Positions 14,155-21,464 of a stretch of 21,464 bases of DNA are shown piece after piece. The notes under the pieces were generated by a model. That model was given only the letters and a program-made list of their open reading frames with translations, did not search any database and had not been told where the DNA came from. A program made the translations under genes and the position numbers. The DNA lies in IMG/VR virus record IMGVR_UViG_3300030108_003700, positions 1 through 21,464 of that record, one strand, 5' to 3'. Positions within the stretch are counted from its first letter, which is position 1, and every line of letters starts with the position of its first letter. The DNA is from a virus.

Positions 14155-14405
14155 TATAACTCCTCTTCTGTTATTGTGTTTAACTCATCCATAGCTTCTT
14201 TGATAGTGCTAAATACTGAACCGACTTCATCGTCAGATTCAAAGTGCCCAGTTCTATCGACTTGGTCTAATAGTTGTTTAGTATCTTGAATTCTTTGTGC
14301 ATAATTTTCAATCCAAGTTTCTAATCGTTCTACTTTTCTTGTTAGATTGAATGTAGTCCAACCTAATGTTAATGCGATTAATCCTAAAATTATTTCAAGT
14401 ATCAT
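14154..14405 (-). CDS. Small single-span membrane protein with coiled-coil tail
   Basis: This 83-residue protein has an N-terminal hydrophobic segment (residues 2-19, ILEIILGLIALTLGWTTF) followed by a charged, heptad-like helix (LTRKVERLETWIENYAQRIQ, DTKQLLDQVD) and an acidic C-terminus. The layout suggests an inner-membrane anchor with a cytoplasmic coiled coil. The start overlaps the upstream HD gene as ATGA, and its stop overlaps the sigma gene start as TAATG, so it is translationally coupled on both sides. No family is recognised; it could tether a partner protein to the membrane. Confidence 0.8.
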   Translation of the reverse strand: MILEIILGLIALTLGWTTFNLTRKVERLETWIENYAQRIQDTKQLLDQVDRTGHFESDDEVGSVFSTIKEAMDELNTITEEEL

Positions 14406-15190
14406 TTCTTTGCCTCCCCAAATAGTTCATTAAATATATCTTTAGCGTCTGTTGACTTTGTGAACTTTTCTTTTACTTCTGTATCAACCGCATCTTTAAT
14501 TTTGTTTACTGACTTCTGAACCTTTTGTGATTCTTTTTTATCTTCACGATGCCACTCGTCGTATTCAGTATGAGTCGCCATCATATCTGCTTGATGTATT
14601 ATGTAAGCGATATTACTCTTTAGTCTCCAAGCTGGATTATATCCTTTTAGATACTTTTCGTTAGCGTCTTCATACAATCCGTCAGCTAGTTTTAATCCAA
14701 GATATTCCCACTCTGACATTTTAAGTCCGTAGTGTTGTAGGATGTAAAGTGCTCTATCTGTAACATTCATATAAGATGATAGATTATCATTATGTGTGTA
14801 AATCTCACCCATATTTTTTACTCTCCAATCATTGTCTTGGATTACATAATAATCATTTCCTTCAACATCCCCAATCTTACCCAAGTCGTGGTGCATAGCT
14901 GCGAATACTAATTCTTCATCAGTAAAGTTTATCATCGCTCCATTTGATTCCCAGACTTCTTTTATCTGTCTGGACATTTTGACCACGTGTAAAATGTGTT
15001 CTACATAACCACCAACCATTGCGTTGTGAAATGCTTTTTTAGCACTCGCTGGTGCCACGACCATTCTGTCTTCTAATTCATCATACATTTTATTTAGTTT
15101 TGCTAATCTTTCACCATCAAATGTATCATTGATAATTTGTCTTAATTCAGACCAATTATCTTGTATTTGTTTTTCTGTTAATTGCTTCAT
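14402..15190 (-). CDS. HD-domain metal-dependent phosphohydrolase/nuclease
   Basis: This 262-residue protein carries an HD domain with all expected metal ligands. His55 lies in FHNAMVGGYVEHILHVV (His65 is also conserved), His101-Asp102 in AAMHHDLGKIGD, and a distal Asp202 in YIIHQADMMATH. The 'H-x6-GG-x-x-EH-x-L' pattern resembles the HD domain of YhaM-type 3'-5' exoribonucleases, but the nucleic-acid-binding OB-fold of YhaM is missing. Possible substrates are therefore nucleotides, cyclic nucleotides or nucleic acid. Residues 205-262 are charged and helical. It overlaps its neighbours by 4 bases on each side (ATGA), placing it between the glycosyltransferase and the small membrane protein. 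A role in nucleotide turnover during DNA modification or host takeover is inference. Confidence 0.85.
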   Translation of the reverse strand: MKQLTEKQIQDNWSELRQIINDTFDGERLAKLNKMYDELEDRMVVAPASAKKAFHNAMVGGYVEHILHVVKMSRQIKEVWESNGAMINFTDEELVFAAMHHDLGKIGDVEGNDYYVIQDNDWRVKNMGEIYTHNDNLSSYMNVTDRALYILQHYGLKMSEWEYLGLKLADGLYEDANEKYLKGYNPAWRLKSNIAYIIHQADMMATHTEYDEWHREDKKESQKVQKSVNKIKDAVDTEVKEKFTKSTDAKDIFNELFGEAKK

Positions 15191-16521
15191 TTATTTATAA
15201 CCTCATATCTATCTTTTGTTAATTTTATATCTTTTTCATTTCTTAGTCTATTTCTATAAGAAGTAAATTTTATCCTAATACCCCAGTTTCCCATATAGTC
15301 TAGTATTTCTTTTTTAGTAACTGATTTTTTATCTCTAATAAAATTTACTATTCTATCATATGATTCTGTTTTACTGATTGTTTTTAGATTGTCAATAGCG
15401 TTTTGAAATGTTGTATTTATTTTATTAATTTGTTTATCCCACTTACTATCTTCAAATCTTTGTATTGATTTTTTTGAATACTCATTTCTAAACTCATCAT
15501 CATCCAATACTTTGTTTATTAGTTCAAGAAAGTCATCTGAGTCTTTGTAATATATTCCAGCTTCATCTGCTAACTCGTGATAACTTCCGTCATCTGAAAA
15601 CATATAAGGAACTCCAACTGACATTCCGTCCGTAGCAGATACTGCCCAACCTTCATACTTTTGTTTACAACAAACACCAACTTTACAAGAAGACAATTTT
15701 GAAAAATAACCAAACCTATCATATTTATCATTCGTCATATATTCTTTATCAATCGAATCTGCTAATGGAATCCACACTACAAAGTCTTTTCTTTGTTCCC
15801 AAAGTTTATCCATTTGCTCTACAAACCAAGGATAGTTTTTGTATGTATGTGGTCTATGATTGTAAACTATAATATTTTTATCAGTAGTTTGCTTTTCATA
15901 GTTTGGTGTTTCCCATCCAAGATAATGTGGTTCAAGAATATCATCTAGTCTTTTAACTACACTATCATTAAAATGTTCCCTAGCATTTTTTAACACAAGT
16001 TGCTTTTGAGCTTCTGTATTGATACCACATTTTTCTTGTTGTAGTAAACCAATGATATTAAATACTAGACCAACTTCATATTCATAGTTTGTTATTTCTT
16101 TGAACTCAGTCCAATGAGTATATCCTATGATTGTGGGTTCTATATTTGTTGTATTATAGAGTAGGTTTTTTAGTTGTCCAGTATGCTCTGGTAAATGTGA
16201 ATACACAATATCATAATCACTATTTTTCCAGTCGACTGCTTTTAGAACTTCTTTAAATGGAAATGACATACGCATAGAATTTGGATATGTCAATTGTGGG
16301 ACGATTAATTGTTCAGTATTATCAAATTGTAAACTTGGTATGAGTTCTGGTGATAATATTGTCCAATCTAAATCATCCCTTATTTTATTCATCTCTTTGA
16401 TGATATTTCCTAAGACAACAACATAACTATCTTTTTCTAAATCTTGCTGAAAAGTTATATTTGGATATACAAGTATTTTATACTTGACTTCCTTGTCATT
16501 GGTATCGAATCTGAAAGACAT
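15187..16521 (-). CDS. GT-B glycosyltransferase with C-terminal winged-helix-like region
   Basis: This is a 444-residue protein. Residues about 1-380 look like a GT-B fold: N-terminal strands KYKILVYPNITFQQ and DIVYSHLPEHTG, then a second half with NIIVYNHRPHTYKNYPWFVE and DFVVWIPLAD. The nucleotide-sugar site resembles family GT4 (KYEGWAVSATDGMSVGVPYM, then DDGSYHELADEAGIYY), where the acidic residues usually bind the donor sugar. Residues about 385-444 (SYDRIVNFIRDKKSVTKKEI, LDYMGNWGIRIKFTSYRNRL, then a basic hairpin) look like a winged helix-turn-helix, unusual for a cell-surface transferase and suggestive of DNA as acceptor. The first 30 residues contain no signal peptide. It overlaps both neighbours (TAATG and ATGA). 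T4 keeps its alpha-glucosyltransferase gene close to gene 55, a similar arrangement. Glycan or DNA acceptor remains unproven. Confidence 0.72.
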   Translation of the reverse strand: MSFRFDTNDKEVKYKILVYPNITFQQDLEKDSYVVVLGNIIKEMNKIRDDLDWTILSPELIPSLQFDNTEQLIVPQLTYPNSMRMSFPFKEVLKAVDWKNSDYDIVYSHLPEHTGQLKNLLYNTTNIEPTIIGYTHWTEFKEITNYEYEVGLVFNIIGLLQQEKCGINTEAQKQLVLKNAREHFNDSVVKRLDDILEPHYLGWETPNYEKQTTDKNIIVYNHRPHTYKNYPWFVEQMDKLWEQRKDFVVWIPLADSIDKEYMTNDKYDRFGYFSKLSSCKVGVCCKQKYEGWAVSATDGMSVGVPYMFSDDGSYHELADEAGIYYKDSDDFLELINKVLDDDEFRNEYSKKSIQRFEDSKWDKQINKINTTFQNAIDNLKTISKTESYDRIVNFIRDKKSVTKKEILDYMGNWGIRIKFTSYRNRLRNEKDIKLTKDRYEVINK

Positions 16522-17756
16522 TATTTAATACTTTCCATATTAACATTAATCTCTCCGTTTAATTCTTTAACATCACCATAAACAACTTTATAGTTCTTTT
16601 TGTCGTTACTATGGTTTTTATAAACATTCTTAATTGGTAACTTATGACCGGACATAATACCACCACCAGTTCTTTCCCAATCTTCTTGGGTTAATGTTGT
16701 GAATATTACACACCAATGTGATGCGGTTTCATCATAAGTAATAAGAATATATTGACCTTCTCGAATACCTTTACCACCTTTCCAGTTAGTCTTTTTTCCT
16801 TGGAACTTAGCTACTTTTATCTCAACCTTATCTTCAATATCTCTATGATAAATATCTGGGTCAGTTGGGTGTCCAGTAGCTGCGACAACATCGTGTCCTT
16901 CTGACTTTAGAACACGAGCAATAATCATCTCACTTAAGTGTGAAATAATCCCTGAAATAGAACCATCTGTAAAATCCTTGAATGGTTCATAGTCTTCACC
17001 ATCAACTTTAGTGCTTATTTCTAAAGTAGAAATAATCGTATTATAGATTCTATTGAATGAAATACTAAACACATCATTTGTGTAAATTTCTGTCCAGTCT
17101 CTATCAAGATTGTTAGAAGTTATAACCTTTACTTTGTTTTTACCCATAGCTTCATCGTGGGCAGATTTAACTGACATATCGCCATCATCTACTTTTTTAA
17201 GTAAATCTTTTCCGTTTACACTATTCTTGATATCTCTAAGTTTTTTAAGAGTCCCCATACTTGTTCCCAAGTCTTTAATATGGGAATCTCTTTCTTTAGG
17301 TGGTCTCGCTACACCATACTCATCCATATACGCTTTCTCAGCGACATCAAACTCATTCAGTTTTACTGATGGTTTCATATCACGATATATGTTAGTGCTC
17401 GTTGTTGTTCTGAAGTTTGAATATGGTTTGTCATCACTTGGATATTCTTCTTGAGACATAGTAATCCAAACCTCATCGAGTCCAGCTAATTTAGCAGCCG
17501 ATGTTCTGGTGTGTCCTGCTTCAATGAGTCCGTCAGGCCAAATAATTATAGCCGCTGAATTTGGAACTAATCCTCTTCCAACTCTATCCTTCATACTATC
17601 ACATATTTCAACTTGTTTAGATGTCTCTTCATCAATATTGTCGTATATCTTTTTGTTAAGTTTGTTTGGTGTAAAGTCATTTGGGTCTGCAAACAACTTT
17701 ACCTCACCATTAATTTTCTTTTTTATTATTTTTATTTTATTTTTTATTTTATTCAT
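16521..17756 (-). CDS. ParB/Srx-like domain fused to PD-(D/E)xK nuclease
   Basis: This 411-residue protein starts MNKIKNKIKIIKKK. The ATG at 17756 is chosen because it overlaps the upstream stop as ATGA and has AAAGGA nine bases before it; an upstream in-frame ATG at 17798 would overlap the previous gene by 46 bases. Residues about 18-110 are ParB-like, with GLIEAGHTRTSAAKLAGL at 76-93 (Gly-His-x-Arg box). Residues 130-205 are helical and basic, similar to a ParB HTH region. Residues 265-365 resemble a restriction-endonuclease fold: Glu276 in a helix, Pro300-Asp301, then Glu312-Ile-Lys314, with a Lys/Gly-rich KKTNWKGGKG loop and QYILITYD strand following. This fits a PD-(D/E)xK catalytic core. 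It lies between the DUF4338 and glycosyltransferase genes. DNA cleavage is likely; target unknown. Confidence 0.72.
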   Translation of the reverse strand: MNKIKNKIKIIKKKINGEVKLFADPNDFTPNKLNKKIYDNIDEETSKQVEICDSMKDRVGRGLVPNSAAIIIWPDGLIEAGHTRTSAAKLAGLDEVWITMSQEEYPSDDKPYSNFRTTTSTNIYRDMKPSVKLNEFDVAEKAYMDEYGVARPPKERDSHIKDLGTSMGTLKKLRDIKNSVNGKDLLKKVDDGDMSVKSAHDEAMGKNKVKVITSNNLDRDWTEIYTNDVFSISFNRIYNTIISTLEISTKVDGEDYEPFKDFTDGSISGIISHLSEMIIARVLKSEGHDVVAATGHPTDPDIYHRDIEDKVEIKVAKFQGKKTNWKGGKGIREGQYILITYDETASHWCVIFTTLTQEDWERTGGGIMSGHKLPIKNVYKNHSNDKKNYKVVYGDVKELNGEINVNMESIK

Positions 17757-18943
17757 CGTCCTATATCCTTTAAGTATTTTTCTTTTGCTTGTTCCCAAGA
17801 GATGTTAATCATTCCGGAATAGAATAATTTTTCGGGTTTTATTTTATTTTGTTCCATTAGTTTAGTGTATCGATTTATTGCCTTTCGCTTCCACCAAGTT
17901 TCAATGTACTCAACATCTCTTTGATACATTGACCTCATTACTAAGTCTTCTTCTTTTATTTCACTTCTAAGAAATTCTTTTCCATTTTGATATATGTTAG
18001 CAAAGTAACAACCTCGTTTAAATCCGTGTTCATACTTTGCTCTTTTGATACCTAACTCTTGATATATCATTTGTATAATTTTTTGTTTGATACCTGTAAC
18101 TGGTTGTCCGTTTGCTCTTACACCAACTTTACTATCGTATTCTTCTCGTTTATTATCTTTAATCCATTGGTGCCAAGTATCATAAAATTTGTCATCTGGT
18201 TTTAAACTAATTTTACCTTTGGTTTCACCGAGAGTTTTCCATTGTGGTATTCCATTATACATTGAGTGGATACCATACAAAGCAGTAGTGGATATACCGA
18301 CTAATGTTTGTCCATACATTTTTTTCCAAGTATCACGAACTACTTTTGAAGTAACCATTTGTGCAACTAACTTACCACCCAACATATTATATCCAAGTGG
18401 TTGAACACAACATATCGTAGTTCCGATAGCAGTATGATTTAGTTTTCCATCTTGGAATTTATTTTCTTTTGTCCAGCCGATTAAAGTATCTCTAACTCCT
18501 AAACTCGTTACATCACTTCCTAAACAAATCAAACCTAACACTTTGCCAGATGATTTATCTTTTACATAAAATTTTACATTACGACCTGGATTAGCTGTGA
18601 ACTCCATTGAGTGAATTAGTCGTCTTGTGATAATCCAATCTTCGTTTGCTTGCGCATTACCTTGTTCAACCGGTTCGACGATTGGTTCTATTGAATTGAT
18701 TTCTTGAATAGTGAGTTCTTTATTATAGATGTCTGTTGGTGTCCATAAAGTTCTTTCTAATCTATCAATTGTGTCAGCTCTATCCATAAAAAATTGTGGG
18801 TCTTTATTAAACTCTTCCCACTTCTTCCACAAAGTAGATTCTTCTACTGACATCTCTTTTAGAAAATCCATATTATCTATGAACTTTTGTTTCTCTGCTT
18901 CGTAATTAAACTCTGCTTCACCAAAGAAATTTTCGAAACTCAT
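17753..18943 (-). CDS. DUF4338 (DruA-like) protein, first gene of the early operon
   Basis: This 396-residue protein shows the ordered motifs I associate with DUF4338, the family of the Druantia protein DruA: a Gly120-Arg121 pair and a strand before GLICLGSD (137-144), then RDTLIGW (151-157), TTICCVQPLGYNMLGGKLVA (175-194), WKKMYG (206-211), and TTALYGIHSMYNGIPQWKTL (219-238) ending in GETKG. The region has an acetyltransferase-like look; a relation to Mom-type DNA-modifying enzymes is possible but not verified. About 100 N-terminal residues are charged and helical, and 140 C-terminal residues are basic and helical (KIIQMIYQELGIKRAKYEHG). Translation starts at 18943, about 38 bases behind the -10 of a near-consensus promoter. 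It overlaps the ParB-nuclease gene by 4 bases. Biochemical activity is unknown. Confidence 0.65.
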   Translation of the reverse strand: MSFENFFGEAEFNYEAEKQKFIDNMDFLKEMSVEESTLWKKWEEFNKDPQFFMDRADTIDRLERTLWTPTDIYNKELTIQEINSIEPIVEPVEQGNAQANEDWIITRRLIHSMEFTANPGRNVKFYVKDKSSGKVLGLICLGSDVTSLGVRDTLIGWTKENKFQDGKLNHTAIGTTICCVQPLGYNMLGGKLVAQMVTSKVVRDTWKKMYGQTLVGISTTALYGIHSMYNGIPQWKTLGETKGKISLKPDDKFYDTWHQWIKDNKREEYDSKVGVRANGQPVTGIKQKIIQMIYQELGIKRAKYEHGFKRGCYFANIYQNGKEFLRSEIKEEDLVMRSMYQRDVEYIETWWKRKAINRYTKLMEQNKIKPEKLFYSGMINISWEQAKEKYLKDIGR

Positions 18944-19601: not shown

Positions 19602-20252
19602 TTAAAATTTTTTATCAAAGTGCTCTTCATAAATAAAATCTTTTTTTCTATTACCCTTCATTAGTTTAAAGTCATTTGGAACACCAAATTCATATCCAAA
19701 TAATTTAACATCTGCTCTAAAATAATGTCCTACTAAAACTATATCATCAATAGTTCTGTAAAAGTCTGTGTAATCATATTGTGGATTTGTATTTAATTTA
19801 GGTAAAGGTTCACACGATAGTTTTTCTAAATCGCAAATTTCTTCCCATTGTTCATCAAGTTTTTCAAAGTTCATAACATAGTCAATACTTTCCTCAGCCA
19901 CAAGAGAATCTTGTTCCATTAACCATTTACATTGTGGCATTGAATCAAAAGTTTGCATATTAAATTGTATGGCACCTTTTCTTAACCAAAGATAAAAAGG
20001 AGCGCCCTTTTGGTCGTAACCTTTTTGTTGTCTATATACATAATGACTAACCATTCGTTCCCAAGGATTTCTTACGATTGCAATTTTAATAGCATTATCA
20101 AAAATAGGTTCTGGTGTATAAGCTTGTAAAACCGACAATGGATAATGTTTAGTTTTTTTTGGTTCTATTTCTAAAACTTTATTCATACTTGTTCCAGCGT
20201 TCTTAGGAATATGAATGAACAATACATTGTGTTTTGCGGAATAATTATACAT
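19602..20252 (-). CDS. Phage-encoded sulfotransferase
   Basis: The 216-residue product starts MYNYSAKHNVLFIHIPKNAG. The ATG at 20252 is preferred over an upstream in-frame TTG at 20258 because AAAGAAGG ends six bases before the ATG and touches the TTG. The PAPS-binding signatures are both visible: HIPKNAGTS at residues 14-22 (5'-phosphosulfate loop) and IVRNPWERMVSHY at about 59-71 (3'-phosphate loop, Arg61 and Ser69). The rest, including YVMNFEKLDEQWEEICD and the typical LPKLNTNPQYDYTDFYR near the C-terminus, fits the sulfotransferase family 2-like group. It would transfer sulfate from PAPS to an OH group of a glycan or small molecule. It overlaps the ATP-grasp gene by 8 bases. Target is unknown; virion or host glycans are candidates. 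Confidence 0.85.
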   Translation of the reverse strand: MYNYSAKHNVLFIHIPKNAGTSMNKVLEIEPKKTKHYPLSVLQAYTPEPIFDNAIKIAIVRNPWERMVSHYVYRQQKGYDQKGAPFYLWLRKGAIQFNMQTFDSMPQCKWLMEQDSLVAEESIDYVMNFEKLDEQWEEICDLEKLSCEPLPKLNTNPQYDYTDFYRTIDDIVLVGHYFRADVKLFGYEFGVPNDFKLMKGNRKKDFIYEEHFDKKF

Positions 20253-21138
20253 TACCAACCTTCTTTATTATAAAATCTACCATCTGTTCAGCTATGTTAC
20301 TTTTTGTATATTTTTCCATACCTTGAAATCCAGGCGCTGAATTAACTTCACATATAACATAACTACCATTATTAAATAACAAGTCCACACCTGCTATATC
20401 TAAATTTAATAATCTTGCACACTCACCACCAATCCACTCAATGTCATCATCTATTTGATAAGGGATTGCTTCTCCGCCTCGTGTGATGTTTGCTCTGAAG
20501 TCTCCATCAACTGATTGTCTCATCATACAACCTACGACTTTACCATTAACAACTAACACTCTTAAATCTTTTCCTAATGAATCTTCAATACATTCTTGTA
20601 TAATAATATTATATCTTGAATTAGTTAACTCTGCCATTTTCATTAATTGTCTAAATTGTTTTTTATCATCAACCATAAAAACACCACTACCATATGAACC
20701 ACTTAAGGTTTTAATTATCAATGGATATTTTAAATTCTTTTCAACCAACTCAATCTTAATTGGATGTTTAACTAACATAGTTTTAGGAACTGGTAGATTT
20801 GATTGTCCAAGAATTTGTTGTGAATATAACTTGTCTTTGACGGCGTCTATTGATTCACTACCATTTATCAATACAACACCTAATCTTTCTAAGTGTCTAA
20901 TGATTGCTTTGATAAAGTATGTGGTTCCACTACCTGTTCTTGGTAATACAAAATCAGGTAATTTTCTTGGTACACCCTCAACCAATATAGACTTTCTATC
21001 ATCTCTATCGACAAATATATCTACATCTTTTGGATTAACTACACGAACCTTGATATCTTGTTTTTCAAATTCTTCTACGAGTCTTTGAACTTCGTGATTT
21101 TCACCTAATTGTTTTTTGTGTATTATCCAACCATTCAT
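20245..21138 (-). CDS. RimK-like ATP-grasp ligase
   Basis: This 297-residue protein is an ATP-grasp enzyme close to RimK/LysX in layout. An N-terminal pre-ATP domain (residues 1-95, ending near VVLINGSESI) is followed by Lys102 in AVKDKLYSQQIL and LPVPKTMLV. Next come the ATP-binding Lys143 and the Gly-rich loop (KTLSGSYGSGVFMV, 143-156), the adenine-side QECIE (181-185), DLRVLVVNGKVVG (191-203), FRANITRGGEA (214-224), and the metal ligands Asp252, Glu264 and Asn266 (VDLLF, ICEVNSAPG). RimK-type enzymes add glutamate or other amino acids to a protein or small-molecule carboxylate. It sits between UvsE (4-base ATGA overlap) and the sulfotransferase, suggesting co-expression. The acceptor, possibly a host ribosomal protein or a peptide-like modification, is unknown. 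Confidence 0.85.
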   Translation of the reverse strand: MNGWIIHKKQLGENHEVQRLVEEFEKQDIKVRVVNPKDVDIFVDRDDRKSILVEGVPRKLPDFVLPRTGSGTTYFIKAIIRHLERLGVVLINGSESIDAVKDKLYSQQILGQSNLPVPKTMLVKHPIKIELVEKNLKYPLIIKTLSGSYGSGVFMVDDKKQFRQLMKMAELTNSRYNIIIQECIEDSLGKDLRVLVVNGKVVGCMMRQSVDGDFRANITRGGEAIPYQIDDDIEWIGGECARLLNLDIAGVDLLFNNGSYVICEVNSAPGFQGMEKYTKSNIAEQMVDFIIKKVGNV

Positions 21139-21464
21139 TTCATAAATCCTTCAATTGCTAATTCTTTGTGTTTAGCTTCTACCATAATATCTACATTATG
21201 TCCATAGGTATTTGGTAGTTGTTTAATTAGGTCTGAATGTGCTTGTGGTCTGATACTTTCATCTAATTGTTCCTTTGAACGAGATTCTGAATAATGAACC
21301 ACCGGAACGATATCATCAGGCCAAGTAGATATGGCAAGTTCTAACGCTTCTTGTTCCGATAGACCACCAGTGCAAAATCTGTGGTGATGATAGTCAAACA
21401 CAATAGGTATACCAATTCGTTTATATATTCCATCGTATAACTCCTTTACTGAATACATTGATGC
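21135..21464 (-). CDS. UV damage endonuclease UvsE/UVDE, N-terminus outside window
   Basis: An open frame enters the window at 21464 and ends at 21135, giving about 109 C-terminal residues. A Met at 21458 is probably internal, since UVDE proteins are near 300 residues and the homology is already in the middle of the fold. The metal-site motif GIPIVFDYHHHRF near residue 20 and VPVVHYSES about 35 residues later match the TIM-barrel active site of UV damage endonucleases, which nick DNA 5' of pyrimidine dimers and other lesions. The C-terminal helix-strand (HNVDIMVEAKHKELA) matches the family end with its conserved acidic residue. Its stop overlaps the ATP-grasp start by 4 bases. A DNA-repair role suits a phage of sunlit waters. 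Confidence 0.85.
   Translation of the reverse strand, partial: ASMYSVKELYDGIYKRIGIPIVFDYHHHRFCTGGLSEQEALELAISTWPDDIVPVVHYSESRSKEQLDESIRPQAHSDLIKQLPNTYGHNVDIMVEAKHKELAIEGFMK

Follow-up and report, generated by a model that had tools for sequence, protein, structure and literature searches.

A predicted ParB-PD-(D/E)xK fusion protein in an exchangeable nuclease slot beside glycosyltransferase and DruA or Mom genes of marine T4-like phages

The locus and the predicted architecture of the fusion protein

The window, i.e. the whole virus record of 21,464 bases that was analyzed here, carries structural genes that, judging from their sequences, are typical of T4-like marine phages. It also encodes a protein, here called X, whose gene sits between a gene for a DruA (DUF4338) protein and a gene for a GT4-type glycosyltransferase (GT), the latter being followed by an HD-domain gene (table 1). 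The start codon of X overlaps the stop codon of DruA (ATGA), and its stop codon overlaps the start codon of the GT gene (TAATG). Upstream of DruA, Pfam matches revealed genes for a RimK-like ATP-grasp protein, a sulfotransferase and a UvdE C-terminal protein (window 19602-21458). Among the window neighbors scanned with Pfam and PADLOC, DruA was the only Druantia protein found.

Table 1. Coordinates of features in the window and in related viral contigs, and occupants of the slot between the DruA and HD genes.
Feature	Contig	Coordinates	Strand	Basis or remark
HD-domain protein, 3′ border of slot	window	14402..15190	-	weak Pfam HD match (E 0.0015); PHROG metal-dependent phosphohydrolase (E 3e-8)
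GT4-type (GT-B) glycosyltransferase, C-terminal winged-helix-order tail	window	15187..16521	-	444 aa; Pfam Glycos_transf_1 (E 4e-9); VIA Z 27
X, ParB-PD-(D/E)xK fusion gene	window	16521..17756	-	411 aa, single intact ORF, ATG at 17756
X, predicted PD-(D/E)xK restriction-endonuclease domain, residues 215-411	window	16524..17114	-	VIA (NaeI, 3ndh, NhoI, EcoRV)
X, predicted active site E276/D301/E312/K314	window	16815..16931	-	intact in 22/22 loci
X, helical, mildly basic ParB-type HTH region, residues 127-214	window	17115..17378	-	VIA (PNOB8-like ParB-N); pI 9.1
X, ParB CTP-binding-type domain, residues 18-126	window	17379..17705	-	Foldseek (6sdk, 7bnk); VIA
X, ParB box G81-H-T-R84	window	17505..17516	-	sequence and conservation
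DruA/DUF4338 protein, 5′ border of slot	window	17753..18943	-	Pfam DruA (E 6e-24); PADLOC DruA (E 4e-26)
TAGT-family glycosyltransferase	L096	3603-4469		
TAGT-family glycosyltransferase	L097/L098	4067-4933		
TAGT-family glycosyltransferase	L086	1207-2016		
TAGT-family glycosyltransferase	L089	522-1331		
TAGT-family glycosyltransferase	L061	3-752		
Occupant: ParB-PD-(D/E)xK	window, L076/77, L100			
Occupant: distant ParB version	L051			
Occupant: GIY-YIG-like	L026, L062-66, L068, L071, L074			
Occupant: GmrSD_N + HNH	L038, L060, L061			
Occupant: GHKL ATPase with C-terminal PD-(D/E)xK-like stretch	L006, L007			
Occupant: no assigned family	L004, L059			

Sequence libraries were nearly blind to X, with no Pfam or PADLOC match and two weak ParB PHROGs, and a PDB sequence search with the family profile yielded one weak ParB fragment only. 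X was modeled with AlphaFold2 together with 12 relatives, and the model was compared to known structures by Foldseek and VIA. The model reached a mean pLDDT of 85.4 and a pTM of 0.54, the latter value reflecting two domains of uncertain mutual placement; the linker before D301 has a pLDDT below 50. Foldseek TM-scores were low since the ParB and nuclease halves align separately. The best Foldseek PDB matches were CDP-bound ParB (6sdk, E 1.9e-4), then EcoRV and NhoI, and the N-terminal half matched CTP-binding ParB structures with a Foldseek probability of 1.00. VIA aligned M. xanthus ParB-CDP to residues 19-126 of the model (92 residues, Z 8.5, rmsd 2.4, 23% identity) and a PNOB8-like ParB-N including its HTH to residues 20-208 (171 residues, Z 9.3), the latter covering the middle of X, which is all-helical in the model. 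For the C-terminal half the best match was NaeI (model residues 216-411, 153 residues, Z 9.8), and 3ndh, NhoI, EcoRV, SfiI, BglI and DpnI matched with Z 7.5-8.7 (8.7, 8.2 and 8.1 for the first three), where values below 8 can also reflect a common arrangement; the nuclease assignment is therefore founded both on the many restriction enzymes that agree and on the conserved motif described below. These comparisons support a predicted architecture in which a ParB-type nucleotide-binding fold and an HTH are fused to a PD-(D/E)xK endonuclease fold. An earlier note on this DNA had proposed a ParB-like domain, a basic, HTH-like middle and a C-terminal restriction-endonuclease core, an architecture that the structural matches support.

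The model of the neighboring GT shows a clear GT-B/GT4 fold (VIA Z 22-28) and ends in a tail of about 60 residues (approximately 384-441) whose elements are ordered H-E-H-H-E-E as in a winged helix. The T4 alpha- and beta-glucosyltransferases were not among the best structural matches listed, which is not informative on the acceptor. GT4 folds mostly act on acceptors other than DNA. The tail is limited to GTs in the DruA-HD setting and is absent from those of a second setting (see below), and because of this absence we put DNA forward as a hypothetical acceptor only. A further glycosyltransferase of the TAGT family (PF20691) is encoded beside X in L096-98, L086 and L089, and also in L061. TAGT is the family of the T6 beta-glucosyl-HMC-alpha-glucosyltransferase, which glucosylates DNA bases (PMC13216743).

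Conserved motifs and relation to known systems

The X family comprises 22 viral-contig loci including the window, with 41-100% identity and with several contigs being near-duplicates. Single-sequence searches with X in phages, viral contigs and genome contigs gave no relatives; the first ones were reached via the neighboring DruA, and alignments of two and then 12 sequences reached 14 and then 21 loci. Neither 50,697 records of cultured phages (tblastn with three members) nor plasmids (one member as query) yielded a relative, and two short peptide pattern scans of genome contigs gave a weak negative. The slot GT likewise had no match in the phage records.

All 22 loci encode an intact G[H/N]TR box and an intact E-x24-D-x10-E-x-K signature at constant spacing. 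In the window protein the corresponding residues, G81-H-T-R84 and E276...P300-D301...E312-x-K314, lie on one chain where the earlier note had placed them, except that the distance from the box to the Asp is about 217 and not 190 residues. A relative with only 21% identity (P0002), whose ParB_N domain is recognizable although below the threshold (Pfam E 0.009), is identical at G81, T83, R84, N122, R125, D301, E312 and K314. Conservation of the last three among homologues was an expectation of that note, and neither of the two outcomes that it had named as refuting its proposal was seen. The residue before N122 is T, S or K, giving a family motif [T/S/K]-N-x-x-R, at a position that we take to be that of the catalytic Glu of E-N-x-x-R in ParB CTPases. 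Neither a GERR box nor an E-N-x-x-R motif with the catalytic Glu was found in X. Judging from these residues, nucleotide binding may have remained while hydrolysis may be lost or different; NTP hydrolysis might be absent altogether since T, S or K replaces the catalytic Glu.

X shares with the ParB/Spo0J CTPases (B. subtilis 6sdk, M. xanthus 7bnk, PNOB8-like 5k5d) the N-terminal nucleotide-binding fold, the HTH, the Gly and Arg of the box and N-x-x-R, but differs from them in its G[H/N]TR box, in the substituted catalytic Glu and in a restriction-endonuclease domain that takes the place of the dimerization tail. An ordinary role in plasmid or chromosome partition, which the ParB fold and HTH might suggest, is highly improbable and was rejected: no ParA or other partition gene was detected with Pfam and PHROG among the window neighbors scanned on this record, which is a fragment, a nuclease core stands where partition proteins have their C-terminal dimerization domain, and the setting is that of a T4-like phage.

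The C-terminal fold, the D...ExK motif and the upstream helix Glu are like those of the type II restriction endonucleases NaeI, EcoRV and NhoI. Unlike these, X is fused to a ParB-HTH part, has no adjacent cognate methyltransferase and sits together with glycosyltransferase and Mom or DruA genes. In architecture, though with no sequence relation visible, X resembles the type IV enzymes GmrSD and BrxU (ParB/Srx-fold DUF262 plus HNH), which likewise join a ParB-superfamily nucleotide module to a nuclease, albeit HNH instead of PD-(D/E)xK. The best BFVD match of X, A0A6J5MAP0 of an uncultured Caudovirales phage ('ParB/Sulfiredoxin'), covers the full length (TM 0.68/0.71, 17% identity), which means that the same architecture is already present in that database under an annotation covering the ParB half only. 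In the open-access literature we found no description of a ParB-PD-(D/E)xK fusion or of the slot. X thus appears to unite known folds and a known theme, a ParB-superfamily module with a nuclease, in a new combination and in a striking genomic slot.

Exchange of nucleases in two genomic settings

Where contigs showed both the DruA and the HD gene, X and GT were both present in 18 (the window and 17 others) and both absent in 14, and in these 14 empty alleles the DruA stop is joined to the HD start within a few bases. The GT was never present without X in this setting. The position of X is occupied by proteins of several unrelated types (table 1). Contig L059, for example, shares 98% identity with the window across HD and GT, diverging exactly at the stop codon of X; its X is unrelated to that of the window and has no meaningful Pfam match. 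DUF262 and HNH (DUF1524) domains gave no Pfam match in the ParB-PD-(D/E)xK family and were found in other occupants of the slot. Elsewhere in a relative lacking X, a pair of genes resembling a DUF262-type and a small HNH protein lies between a 241-aa gene and later structural genes (L013:3281-4680).

In a second setting, relatives of X stand after two Mom genes and before the genes for GT and DNA polymerase. The Mom protein of phage Mu is a DNA adenine-modifying enzyme, and the genes flanking X here match the family clearly (PF25680, E 1e-48). X is again exchanged, for a GIY-YIG protein in L093 and for proteins of 598/610 aa without assigned family in L090-92 and L094. In both settings, then, unrelated nucleases replace each other precisely at the borders of genes. 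X of the second setting is part of a replication cluster, in which the genes for DNA polymerase, clamp and clamp loader follow it. This would be in line with a DNA-maintenance enzyme, namely a ParB-loaded nicking or resolving nuclease that aids replication, base modification or packaging; we regard this role as quite improbable, and X does not appear to be a core function since close relatives either lack it or have unrelated proteins in its place.

Altogether 80 GT loci were collected, 77 of them with a readable upstream gene; the phages are interrelated and the counts are hence not independent events. The gene 5′ of the GT encodes GIY-YIG proteins in 28 loci, the ParB-PD-(D/E)xK family in nine, GmrSD-like or HNH proteins in eight, SF2-like proteins (named from Walker-like sequence alone) and an unassigned 583-aa protein in three each, and GHKL proteins in two, while 11 have other genes, in three of them the clamp gene. 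In about 13 of the 77, the GT is immediately preceded by Mom or DruA. Of 56 distinct upstream genes, 30 share the TAATG overlap with the GT, and most of these encode X types; overlaps of this kind are, however, common in compact phage genomes. In most relatives the GT follows directly 3′ of X, whereas it lies 0.9 kb 5′ of X in L096-98; L095 has two GT4-type genes 1.7-4.4 kb downstream of X, as does L101 by sequence similarity. The GT is tightly linked to X with DruA or Mom adjacent, a linkage that might be of the restriction-modification kind. A strict co-occurrence of X and GT in every setting was considered at first and dropped, since the GT of the second setting can directly follow Mom, DruA or clamp.

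Some further observations were made at these loci. G-H-H-T-R boxes in GIY-YIG occupants suggest a shared ParB domain, but we do not propose one since the profile comparison was weak (E 0.015, probability 3%). Two divergent DruA-like genes, recognized by similarity, stand in tandem directly after the GT in L156 (5633-6793 and 6795-8006). Small ORFs that look PD-(D/E)xK-like by eye occur near GTs without a large X in L103 (3290-3763, Pfam DUF6998 just below cut-off) and L171 (507-1091, no Pfam match).

The precise empty alleles and the replacement at gene borders are what would be expected if X were a free-standing homing endonuclease that cuts alleles lacking X and is then copied into them during repair, with the GT travelling along or marking a conserved hot spot. 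Like the phage homing endonucleases T4 Seg/Mob and PhiPA3 gp210, X is a phage-borne nuclease with a recurrent insertion point and empty alleles, but it differs in its ParB-nuclease architecture and linked GT. The slot also houses GIY-YIG proteins with weak SegE similarity, HNH proteins and endonuclease-VII-like genes, which fit homing too, and homing enzymes can double as weapons against competitors, as the intron endonuclease gp210 interferes with a co-infecting phage (PMC11620839). Homing is the main rival explanation, and we consider it somewhat less probable than the modification locus discussed below. Against it, the GT of the first setting never occurs without X, the large GmrSD-like, GHKL and SF2-like occupants are unlike known homing enzymes, and the X family is found between unrelated flanks in different settings with its catalytic set kept in 22/22 copies.

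Possible functions of the locus

Our preferred reading, which we hold tentatively and with somewhat less than even confidence, is that X acts as a nucleotide-gated endonuclease and serves as the interchangeable nuclease of a phage locus for DNA modification, consisting of DruA or Mom and the GT, sparing phage DNA. The ParB-type nucleotide-binding and HTH module would load on DNA, bind nucleotide and gate the C-terminal PD-(D/E)xK cutter. X would then cut DNA without the phage's own modification, i.e. the host chromosome or co-infecting phages, and the modification would spare the phage genome, the linked GT and, where present, TAGT adding the protecting group. ParB-superfamily domains in conflict systems have been described as NTP-regulated DNases (PMC5512222), a modification-dependent restriction enzyme couples the ParB/Srx-fold NTPase GmrS to an HNH part (PMC4619093), and restriction-modification systems include GHKL ATPases that occur with nucleases (PMC2292703). 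In view of this GmrSD and GHKL literature, several of the unrelated slot occupants are of types known from restriction.

Some observations speak against such a modification locus, namely the mostly non-DNA acceptors of GT4 enzymes, the GT tail missing in the second setting, the missing ParB catalytic Glu, some loci at which the GT has no X next to it and the X of L081, which lacks a window-type GT, as well as the occupants that also fit homing. Furthermore, no X-GT specificity is visible, since the same GT tolerates unrelated nucleases. The present data do not separate a modification locus, to which we lean with caution, from homing, to which we give less credence.

The earlier note had also suggested NTP gating or modification sensing by X, and either might apply. 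A modification-dependent, type IV-like nuclease would cut the modified DNA of a competitor while the phage's own GT provides a different, safe pattern. The GmrSD-like proteins in the same slot are consistent with this, as GmrSD cleaves glucosylated DNA (PMC4619093), and the structural neighbors of X include NhoI, Eco15I-N and DpnI, whose structures were determined together with methylated or target DNA. However, X matches enzymes for unmodified sites (NaeI, EcoRV, SfiI and BglI) as well or better, and a modification-binding pocket was not identified in X, which makes this mode of action improbable, if slightly less so than DNA maintenance.

If X does cut DNA that lacks the phage's own modification, marine T4-like phages might possess a plug-in locus resembling restriction-modification systems, in which the genome is protected by a constant set of DNA hypermodification genes (Mom or DruA, GT4, sometimes TAGT) and the nuclease is swapped like a cartridge among unrelated nucleotide-gated nucleases, the ParB-PD-(D/E)xK family being one of them, that destroy unmarked DNA in the infected cell. 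This wider scheme is conceivable but more speculative than the role proposed for X itself. If true, one modification set would shield the phage against many nucleases and thereby allow free nuclease trading at a single locus, and lytic viruses would wield a restriction-modification logic directed against hosts or rivals. X would then also offer a putative ParB-gated EcoRV/NaeI-like nuclease to test, and the slot would offer candidate GT4-fold DNA glycosyltransferases. Even if homing turned out to be the better explanation, the slot would represent a nuclease hot spot of unusual diversity next to genes for base modification.
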